From the NCBI RefSeq assembly GCF_900090305.1, contig NZ_LT607751.1, positions 496,001-560,000 of the forward strand: a DNA stretch of 64,000 nt, given 5' to 3'. A program made the translations under genes and the position numbers. Positions within the stretch are counted from its first letter, which is position 1. Each line of letters begins with the position of its first letter. Below are positions 37,564 through 43,841 of this stretch, piece by piece. A model generated the notes under the pieces. The model was not told the DNA's origin and did no database searches. It saw only the letters and a list, made by a program, of their open reading frames with translations. Source of the stretch: Micromonospora siamensis. GTDB taxonomy: Bacteria; Actinomycetota; Actinomycetes; Mycobacteriales; Micromonosporaceae.

Positions 37564-38160
37564 TCAGAGGTACTGGCCGGTGCTGTGTCCCTCGCCGCCG
37601 CCCGGCGGCTGCCCCATTCCGGGCATGCCGGGCACCATCCCGGCCGGGCCGCTCGGCAGCGCGTGCCGGCCGTTGCGCATCTGCTCCAGCTGGACCCGGG
37701 CCGCCATCTGCTGGGCGACCAGGGCCGCCTGGATGCCGTGGAACAGCCCCTCCAGCCAACCGACCAGCTGGGCGTGGGCGATCCGCAGCTCGCCCTCGCT
37801 GGGCGCCTGGTCCTCGGCGAAGGGCAGCGAGAGTCGCTCCAGCTCCTCGCGCAGCTCCGGGGCCAGGCCCTCCTTGAGCTCGACGATCGACCGCTCGTGG
37901 ATCTCCCGCATCCGGTGCCGGCTCGCGTCGTCCAGCGGGGCGGACTTGACCTCCTCCAGCAGCTGCTTGATCATGCTGCCGATCCGCATCACCTTCGCGG
38001 GCTGCTCGACCAGGCGGGTGGGGTCCTCACCCGGCCCGTCGTCGGTCTGCACGGTGCCGACCGGCCGGCCGTCCGGCCCGACCACCACCACGGTGCCCGG
38101 GTGCCCGGTGCCCTCCCGGCCCGGCTCGTCGTTCTCTCCAGCTGAGCGCGCTTCGGTCAT
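37564..38160 (-). CDS. bpa: Bacterial proteasome activator
   Basis: ATP-independent activator of the 20S proteasome (Bpa/PafE, DUF2587), 198 residues. The helical-bundle core is PAKVMRIGSMIKQLLEEVKSAPL, HRMREIHERSIVELKEGL, ELRIAHAQLVGWLEGLFHGI; the Gly/Pro/Met-rich linker ends in the C-terminal motif GQYL (195-198), which docks between proteasome alpha subunits. Known in mycobacteria to form a dodecameric ring for degrading unfolded proteins. Start ATG 38160 begins MTEARSAG; a TAAAGA lies 8 bases upstream. Divergent from the esterase by 61 bases. Confidence 0.95.
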   Translation of the reverse strand: MTEARSAGENDEPGREGTGHPGTVVVVGPDGRPVGTVQTDDGPGEDPTRLVEQPAKVMRIGSMIKQLLEEVKSAPLDDASRHRMREIHERSIVELKEGLAPELREELERLSLPFAEDQAPSEGELRIAHAQLVGWLEGLFHGIQAALVAQQMAARVQLEQMRNGRHALPSGPAGMVPGMPGMGQPPGGGEGHSTGQYL

Positions 38161-38221
38161 GGCACCCATCTTTACCCACCGCCGTGGCTCGCACGCGCCC
38201 GGACCGGCTACCGTCGCCGGC

Positions 38222-38998
38222 ATGCCCGCCGACCCGCGCGCCGTGCTCAGCCGCCCCGCCCCGCCGCCGGACGCGACCGTCGCCTACGGGGACCATCCGG
38301 ACCAGCTCGCCGACCTGCGCCGGCCCGCCGGGGCCGGGCCCGCACGGCGGCTCGTCGTGGTGGTGCACGGCGGCTTCTGGCGACCGGAGTACGACCGTAC
38401 GCACACCGGACCGCTGGCGGCGGCGCTGGCCGCTCTCGGGCACCCGGTGGCGCAGCTGGAGTACCGCCGGACCGGTTGGCCGCACACCCTGACCGACGTG
38501 CTCGCCGGGGTGGCGGCGCTGCCCGCCCTCGCCGCGGCGAGCCTGGCCGGCCGGGTGACCGCGGATCCGCCGGTGCTGGTCGGCCACTCGGCGGGCGGCC
38601 AGCTCGCCCTGTACGCGGCCGCGCACGCGCCCGGATCGGTGGGCGGGGTGTTGGCGCTGGCCCCGGTGGCGGACCTGGCCGAGGCGTACCGGCTGGATCT
38701 GGACTCCGGCGCGGTGGCCGCGCTGCTGGGTGGCGGGCCGGCCGACGTCCCGGACCGGTACGCCGTCGCCGATCCACGTTCGTTGGTGCCCAAAGGAACA
38801 CGGACGGTAGTTGTGCACGGCACCGAGGATCGGCAGGTGCCCATCGGGATCAGCCGCCGGTACGTGGCCGCGGCGGTCGCCGCGGGTGCCGACACGGCCC
38901 TCGTTGAGCTGCCCGAATGCGAACACTTCGGGCTGATCGATCCGGAGTCCCCGGCATGGCCGCACGTCACCGATGCGTTGCGGTCTCTCGCTGCATGA
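38222..38998 (+). CDS. Alpha/beta hydrolase (esterase, kynurenine formamidase-like)
   Basis: Alpha/beta hydrolase of 258 residues with oxyanion-hole HGGFW (VVVHGGFWRPEYD), nucleophile Ser123 in VGHSAGGQ, Asp in VVHGTEDRQVP and His in ECEHFGLIDP. The HGGxW-GHSAGG combination resembles kynurenine formamidase and bacterial carboxylesterases; no tryptophan catabolism genes adjoin, so the substrate is open. TACCGT seven bases before ATG 38222. Confidence 0.88.
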   Translation: MPADPRAVLSRPAPPPDATVAYGDHPDQLADLRRPAGAGPARRLVVVVHGGFWRPEYDRTHTGPLAAALAALGHPVAQLEYRRTGWPHTLTDVLAGVAALPALAAASLAGRVTADPPVLVGHSAGGQLALYAAAHAPGSVGGVLALAPVADLAEAYRLDLDSGAVAALLGGGPADVPDRYAVADPRSLVPKGTRTVVVHGTEDRQVPIGISRRYVAAAVAAGADTALVELPECEHFGLIDPESPAWPHVTDALRSLAA

Positions 38999-42737: not shown

Positions 42738-43841
42738 TCAGAGGTACATGCCGGTGCGGTGCTCCCCCTCGCCCCGGGCCGGCTTGTCGCCCTCACCGAA
42801 GAAGCGCTTGCCGCCGAACTCGCCGTGCAGCCGGTCGTCCAGCTCGTCGGCCAGCCCCGTCATCACCTGCACCGCGAGCATCAGGTGGGTGGCCTGGAAG
42901 TTGCGGCCGAAGACCGGGATGGAGGCCCACACCGTGTCGTCGGCGCAGTACAACCGGCCGATCGGCATCCGGTTGGTCAGCTCGGAGAGCTTCACGTAGA
43001 GCCGCTCGGTCGGCTCGACCTCGGTCAGCACCGGGGAGAAGACGTCCACCAGCGGCGGATTGTCCCGGACCCGGACGAAGACCATCGCCGAGCCGGCCCG
43101 GATGTTGATGTCCCCGTCCGAGTCGACCTGGAGCTGGTCGGCGTCCGACTTCAACATCGTGGAGACGACGGTCCGCACCCGGTCCGCCAGCTCCAGCACG
43201 TCCTTCTCGCCCTCCTTGGCCCCCGCGGCGGTGGCCAGCGCCTCGTCCAGGTCGGCCTCGACGTCGCGGTCCGGGCCGAACTCGCTGCGCGCCGTGCCCA
43301 GCGGCGGCACCGGCAACGGCTCACCCTGCGCGTCGTGCACCAGATAGACCAGGAAGGCCGGGTGCGGGGCGCCGTAGACGTCGCGGAGCGTACGGGTCAG
43401 CACCGGGGCCAGCTTGGCGGCCTCGGCCGTGGAGCCGTCCAGGCCGAAGTCCTCGCCCGAACCCGCCACCACACCCGGCGGCGACCAGCCCAGGGCGATC
43501 ATGTCCGCCACCGCTGCCCGGTCCAGCCGGTAGCCCTGCGGCAGCGTGGCGTTGCCGACCGCCCGGGCGGAGAGCTTCCCCTCCTCGCCGACGTCGACGC
43601 TGGTCGAGTAGACGGCGTCGCCGGTGCCCGAGGCGGTCGGGTCGAGGGTCAGCTCCAGGTGCGCCCCGGCGGGCAGCTCCCGCAGCCGCTCGGCCAGCGC
43701 CCGGGCGAACTCCCGCCAGGCCTCGGTGACCTTCGACCGCAGGTCGGCCGTGCTCGGCTCGTCCAGCAGGATCGACTCGTACTGCTCCGGCGTGGTGCCC
43801 GCCTGCGCAGCGGCCGGCTCCGAGGGGTGGTCTGCCGTCAT
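42738..43841 (-). CDS. YbjN/T3SS-chaperone-like protein with a Bpa-like C-terminus
   Basis: Soluble protein of 367 residues. Residues about 28-190 form an actinobacterial N-terminal domain (LRSKVTEAWREFARALAERL, YRLDRAAVADMIALGWSPPG); residues about 205-350 resemble YbjN/type III secretion chaperone folds (DNPPLVDVFSPVLTEVEPTE, YVKLSELTNRMPIGRLYCAD, HLMLAVQVMTGLADELDDRL). The tail is GEGEHRTGMYL; Bpa at 37564 ends GEGHSTGQYL. The proteasome-docking motif of Bpa is that last GQYL, so this protein may bind the 20S proteasome. Role in the cell is not known. Confidence 0.85.
   Translation of the reverse strand: MTADHPSEPAAAQAGTTPEQYESILLDEPSTADLRSKVTEAWREFARALAERLRELPAGAHLELTLDPTASGTGDAVYSTSVDVGEEGKLSARAVGNATLPQGYRLDRAAVADMIALGWSPPGVVAGSGEDFGLDGSTAEAAKLAPVLTRTLRDVYGAPHPAFLVYLVHDAQGEPLPVPPLGTARSEFGPDRDVEADLDEALATAAGAKEGEKDVLELADRVRTVVSTMLKSDADQLQVDSDGDINIRAGSAMVFVRVRDNPPLVDVFSPVLTEVEPTERLYVKLSELTNRMPIGRLYCADDTVWASIPVFGRNFQATHLMLAVQVMTGLADELDDRLHGEFGGKRFFGEGDKPARGEGEHRTGMYL

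Follow-up and report, generated by a model that had tools for sequence, protein, structure and literature searches.

A minus-strand gene in the window, the whole 64,000-nucleotide stretch of DNA analysed here, encodes a two-domain protein of the TY-chaperone superfamily (the TY-Chap protein) with a C-terminal ending like those of Bpa and Mpa, and on sequence grounds we regard it as a strong candidate for a new partner of the 20S proteasome. The tail is real, its conservation is seen in the protein sequence, and among orthologues it is exchanged for the established docking motif. We assign a probability of about one half to the whole reading, in which the protein would be a peptide-binding chaperone that docks by its tail at the alpha ring of the 20S and passes its clients on.

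The TY-Chap gene and its C-terminal ending

The features of the gene, together with the nearby activator gene, are as follows:

42738..43841, minus strand: TY-Chap3/TY-Chap1 protein of 367 aa, a candidate 20S-docking chaperone (open reading frame and Pfam)
43350..43724, minus strand: TY-Chap3 domain, residues 40-164 (PF22552, E 6.8e-28)
42795..43193, minus strand: TY-Chap1 domain, residues 217-349, of the class I T3SS-chaperone/YbjN fold (PF22551, E 2.3e-45)
42762..42794, minus strand: variable linker, residues 350-360, predicted to be disordered (homologue rows and model pLDDT)
42741..42761, minus strand: conserved ending HRTGMYL, residues 361-367, with the core GMYL at 42741-42752 (homologue endings)
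37564..38160, minus strand: Bpa, the bacterial proteasome activator, 198 aa, ending TGQYL with its GQYL codons at 37567-37578 (PF10759, E 1.5e-75)

The names of the nearest homologues placed the genome, that of a soil bacterium, in Micromonospora. Pfam scores of 153.9 bits for TY-Chap1 and 98.2 bits for TY-Chap3, relative to a curated cut-off of 27, assigned the protein to the TY-chaperone (T3SS/YbjN) superfamily; at E values up to 1 Pfam returned these two domains only, without the Bpa domain PF10759, and an NCBIfam search of the protein gave no match. TY-Chap3 is described as a circularly permuted TY-chaperone fold (PMC9503650, text available in part). In a structure model built on 70 alignment rows (pLDDT 81.4), which replaced an earlier one with 26 rows (pLDDT 67.2), the TY-Chap1 half was predicted to adopt the class I chaperone fold, with T3SS chaperones, several of them solved with effectors, among the best structural matches to residues 210-347. 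The same search gave little information on the TY-Chap3 half, and residues 350-367 had a pLDDT below 50. Across 26 aligned orthologues, TY-Chap1 contained long invariant runs.

The first-pass annotation had described a two-domain YbjN/type III-chaperone-like protein, which the PF22552 and PF22551 matches and the T3SS-chaperone structural matches bear out, and a flexible Gly-rich linker, of which the flexibility agrees with the low-confidence, variable linker but the richness in Gly does not hold for TY-Chap in particular. Re-reading both minus-strand open reading frames returned the two endings that it had given, GEGEHRTGMYL for TY-Chap and GEGHSTGQYL for Bpa, as well as the likeness that it had seen between the DNA of the two gene ends, ACCGGC-NNN-TACCTCTGACC being common to both 3' ends. 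Because the Leu, Tyr, Gly, Thr and stop codons of the tail differed synonymously among 80 named relatives, the signal lies in the protein ending and not in the DNA, and a common origin of the two gene ends, as DNA likeness might suggest, was dropped on account of this variation.

With the residue frequencies of 14 window genes (TY-Chap and Bpa included) and an assumed 5700 proteins, chance alone was expected to yield about 1.3 proteins ending in G-x-Y-L and about 0.06 ending in G[MQ]YL. A degenerate DNA pattern for a G-x-Y-L end had 21 sites in the 6.25-Mb genome versus 53 for a reversed-pattern control; the number of sites is thus not raised and was set aside as weak evidence, and conservation of the ending is stronger evidence than the number of G-x-Y-L proteins. 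Eight of the 21 sites had a true stop codon, and five of these eight closed a long open frame, namely those of Mpa (GQYL), Bpa (GQYL), TY-Chap (GMYL), a Cpn10-like protein (GLYL) and a DUF5925 AAA protein (GGYL), all of them by family name protein-handling proteins or AAA ATPases.

The docking contacts of a GQYL tail are its Tyr, its end carboxylate and its Gly (PMC9599533, in part), and its Gln is not essential (PMC12288473, in part); since the Gln is dispensable and the contacts lie elsewhere, GMYL would retain what matters, and it also fits HbYX. The penultimate Tyr and hydrophobic last residue of an HbYX/GQYL-type ending are present in TY-Chap and conserved in its orthologues. PrcB and PrcA are both encoded in the same genome, and its PrcA, aligned to the solved alpha subunit 3h6f, kept Arg26, Lys52, Glu119, Asp144 and Ser146, which are the alpha-subunit contacts of the tail in the available part of PMC9599533; a 20S with its docking-pocket residues is thus found in the genome that carries TY-Chap. 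Mpa ended in GQYL at all 25 full-length loci (26 loci in all).

The Bpa gene is found 4.6 kb beyond the 3' end of the TY-Chap gene in the same orientation, and none of the five genes between them (encoding an ADH-type reductase, an AsnC-type regulator, a DDAH-like protein, a solute-binding protein and an alpha/beta hydrolase) is proteasomal; DUF6457, a MobA-like protein and FdhD are encoded on the 5' side. Near Micromonospora, Bpa fell inside the available 3' flank at 72 of 120 loci (in 71 cases in the same orientation, 1.3-5.8 kb away) and, when longer flanks were taken, in 17 of 38 (same strand, 2.5-7.5 kb; 40 regions taken, of which L298 and L299 were not TY-Chap flanks). It was not found in the other 21. 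These included the most distant genera, and we lowered the nearness of Bpa as evidence; the arrangement may be plain synteny. Not all 38 flanks were long, at least three being under 14 kb. Opposite Bpa, on the plus strand, a long ORF spans 37580-38998; a crude gene caller favoured it, and automatic annotation could fall into the same trap.

Conservation of the tail and its co-occurrence with the 20S core

A conserved GxYL end among homologues, the first check proposed by the first-pass annotation, was found in the orthologues. GMYL ended 120 of 120 homologue rows, query included (the best 120 of 1183 and hence biased to close kin, for which reason distant genomes were read), and TGMYL ended all 80 named loci kept from 191 confirmed. 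Among 85 Micromonosporaceae genomes read out of 170 (91 loci, of which three were not orthologues and three were repeats of a protein), the ending was GMYL in 77, GQYL in six, GLYL in one and GMYI in one. The six GQYL orthologues, spread over five genera (g251, g252, g254, g273 and g277), have exactly the motif of Mpa and Bpa. In right-aligned tails, entropy was 0 over the last five positions (-1 to -5) and rose to 1.6-3.3 bits between -9 and -20, the latter partly from length differences, and the linker between TY-Chap1 and the ending varied in both length and letters.

A search across the family detected the orthologue in 170 of 200 Micromonosporaceae genomes and 37 of 44 genera. PF00227 (20S) matches were present in 200 of 200, and co-occurrence within this family was rejected as a test for that reason. 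The remaining 30 genomes, 22 of them from genus g246, had a 20S (inferred from listed results for ten of the 30) and no orthologue found by searches that scored the roughly 10-19 best first-look candidates per genome and may miss a divergent copy; the TY-Chap protein is therefore accessory. One Micromonosporaceae genome with a 20S and no orthologue found, G575, had a third PF00227 match.

These 30 genomes bear on the view that TY-Chap serves the 20S core in assembly or quality control, the two tails of a dimer resting on half-made alpha rings, in the manner of Pba1-Pba2 and archaeal PbaA, and keeping activators off until maturity. Having few tails, a dimer might be better suited to assembly than to opening the gate as a ring, and Pba1-Pba2 are reported as HbYX-bearing core-particle chaperones, with archaeal PbaA acting as an activator (PMC9065996 and PMC3605417). 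However, retention of the 20S where no orthologue was detected argues that TY-Chap is not needed for assembly in general, and we consider this role unlikely.

Across the phylum, the full-length profile matched six of 396 genomes, of which two had both domains, and the Pfam TY-Chap1 profile matched 33. For the Pfam profile, here and in the class sample below, roughly 10-19 first-look candidates were again scored in each genome, and divergent copies may have escaped. Short TY-Chap1 proteins of another family ended in GYL (60) or GYI (13) in 73 of 86 rows, query included; of the other 13, sorted by eye, one ended in GRY and 12 looked like fragments or frame-shifted ends. A YL/YI tail was present in 21 of the 33 TY-Chap1 genomes (families f1, f9, f15 and f16), six had a C-terminal TY-Chap1 without a tail, and six had internal or weak matches without a tail. 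Tails outside Micromonosporaceae were xGYL/xGYI or GAYL, not G[MQ]YL, and Mpa there still ended in GQYL.

PF00227 was found in 27 of 31 tested TY-Chap1 genomes, plus G000 and G204. PrcA/prcB-type matches accompanied 19 of the 21 tailed genomes in the phylum sample; G335 (tailed, 88% complete) had one weak, differently placed PF00227 match yet possessed Mpa, neither 20S nor Mpa was found in G178 (tailed, 83% complete), and G037 had tail and 20S, with Mpa not found. Tailless C-terminal TY-Chap1 proteins occurred despite a 20S in G016, G162, G199 and G304, and together with no detected 20S in G015 and G197. A second sample of 200 genomes was drawn from one class around G197, a genome already known as 20S-less. 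Of these, 15 had TY-Chap1, and a 20S was found in 0 of 15 and a tail, at the loci read, in 0 of 15. Family f16 (G009, G051, G075, G226 and G335) additionally showed a weak PF00227-like match separate from the prcA/prcB pair; it covered profile positions 5-147 (5-55 in G051) and was the sole match found in G335.

Counted by genome, tail and 20S were associated (Fisher P = 6e-6 for C-terminal proteins and P = 1e-4 for all 47 genomes, the table having been made without and with the internal or weak matches of G062, G085, G278, G298, G307 and G322), and counted by family the value was P = 0.085. A tree of the TY-Chap1 domain (48 domain rows, with G335 scored as 20S-bearing from its Mpa, and excluding G616, repeat loci and any internal or weak matches) required four changes for the tail and five for the 20S. 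On its well-supported branches, the tail went the same way in 0.9 on average of three contrasts in 20S and the other way in 0, and the 20S went the same way in 1.0 of two contrasts in the tail and the other way in 0.1; several long branches meet in this tree, and the kinship-corrected contrasts are too few. The tail tracks with the 20S loosely and over few lineage changes, an association that is suggestive and not significant after kinship correction.

The first-pass annotation had proposed such tracking as a check, and had named tailless homologues in 20S genomes, or the motif in genomes without a 20S, as evidence to the contrary. The tracking it looked for appears in the tailed and in the 20S-less genomes but not at significance once kinship is allowed for; orthologue tails in the genomes read were all G-x-Y-[LI], but the four tailless genomes with a 20S go against it; and the incomplete G178 had the tail with neither 20S nor Mpa found.

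PDZ domains read C-terminal hydrophobic residues, and the tail might instead serve another receptor, such as a protease of the PDZ type (HtrA), a component of Clp or the groove of a TY-Chap partner subunit; its link to the 20S would then be a coincidence of lineage. The differing form of the tail among lineages (GMYL, GGYL, AGYI and HGAYL), the scarcity of kinship-corrected contrasts and the tailed G178 would all fit. Such a coincidence would not be expected to produce the exchange of GMYL for exact GQYL in five genera, nor the missing tail in all 15 genomes with TY-Chap1 in the sample around G197, where no 20S was found, and we judge another receptor improbable.

A putative docking chaperone at the 20S gate

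Docking of the TY-Chap tail on the 20S appears likely from its sequence. In the reading that we prefer, the disordered C-terminal linker would present the 20S-docking motif, GMYL or GQYL, while the TY-Chap domains of a protein that is probably dimeric, by analogy with class I T3SS chaperones, would keep client segments, unfolded or extended, close to the 20S gate; the client would then be degraded, perhaps with Bpa or Mpa in the remaining pockets. Docking, the dimeric state, client binding and a role in delivery, as opposed to some other task, are our inferences; that substrate delivery is the job of TY-Chap we would call an even bet, and the sequence does not tell an activator, an adaptor and a delivery chaperone apart. 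The earlier proposal of a possible new 20S interactor is supported by the conserved tail, its exchange for GQYL in five genera, the YL/YI endings elsewhere and the company of tail and 20S in the samples taken, but not by the kinship-corrected contrasts, which are too few.

A tail on a flexible linker would be sufficient for a competitor that fills the alpha pockets and displaces Mpa or Bpa under stress while delivering nothing, and in vitro the tail of Bpa does allow it to compete with Mpa (PMC4254994, in part). Such a role would, however, leave two conserved domains, with their invariant runs in TY-Chap1, unexplained, and seems to us decidedly unlikely. C-terminal motifs can also be degrons. 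That TY-Chap itself is a short-lived 20S or Clp substrate is nevertheless highly improbable, the motif being kept as the very end of the protein and matching the ends of two activators that dock by it (PMC9599533, in part).

Two further proteins of the genome end in a G-x-Y-L motif. One, a second Cpn10-like protein (GroES family; 112 aa; C1:113282-113620; loci L001 and L319; PF00166, E 3.5e-15), ends in ATGLYL, and the other, a DUF5925 AAA ATPase (C1:5641695; locus L018, 1501-2829, minus strand), ends in LGGYL. TGLYL ended 120 of 120 rows of Cpn10-like homologues, own included (best 120 of 7365), 148 of 246 genomes of the class matched at E 1e-15 or better, and GLYL followed a short variable stretch at all 50 loci read (the 30 best and 20 chosen for spread). 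A 20S was present in the five of these genomes for which its status was established, G000, G204, G439, G062 and G085; G278 and G298 had a 20S and no Cpn10-like match. It is possible, and we offer it tentatively, that TY-Chaps, the GLYL Cpn10-like ring and perhaps the DUF5925 AAA protein form an unrecognised layer of actinobacterial 20S partners, having only a G-x-Y-L-type end and a flexible tether in common. The Cpn10-like ring, GroES-family and hence probably seven-fold, could cap the alpha ring, itself seven-fold, by stacking on it along a common axis, with TY-Chap as the client-holding arm, and the bacterial 20S would in that case gain a pupylation-independent chaperone network.

Relation to known systems

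The bacterial 20S partners named in the available parts of PMC12288473 and PMC8223512 are Mpa/ARC, Bpa/PafE and Cpa, and one of these two papers states there that nothing is known of how the association of activators with the 20S is regulated. A count of 982 HbYX proteins in Actinobacteria (PMC11475706, in part) may include single members of the TY-Chap family. A literature search that took in few subscription papers found no paper linking YbjN or TY-Chap with the proteasome or GLYL with GroES, and no paper containing GMYL when it was searched with proteasome or actinobacteria. A conserved chaperone with a docking tail would make a further 20S layer directly testable with recombinant proteins and, if the reading is true, would give a role to TY-Chap domains, which are otherwise put in ADP-ribose systems by prediction.

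Compared with Mpa/ARC, the ending is TGMYL in TY-Chap and TGQYL in Mpa of the same genome (L013), whereas Mpa is an AAA ATPase and has no domain in common with the TY-Chap protein. Class I T3SS chaperones and YbjN/AmyR/DR1245 are not known to carry a proteasome tail, and in contrast to the former no secretion system is implied for TY-Chap here. Pba1-Pba2/PbaA belong to eukaryotes and archaea and are likened to TY-Chap by description only, in that they too are reported as chaperones whose HbYX ends engage the alpha ring (PMC9065996 and PMC3605417). The TY-Chap1 and TY-Chap3 proteins of ADP-ribose conflict systems share PF22551 and PF22552 and are likewise predicted peptide binders, but they are tied to ADPr-centred systems, and in the available text of PMC9503650 the word proteasome is absent and no tail is described. 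Bpa/PafE (PF10759) is a dodecameric ring (PMC9599533, in part), whereas TY-Chap has a predicted T3SS-chaperone fold and no PF10759; the two are alike in a GQYL-type C terminus after a flexible stretch and in being ATP-independent, and Bpa/PafE was itself found by a genome scan of like logic (PMC4254994, in part).
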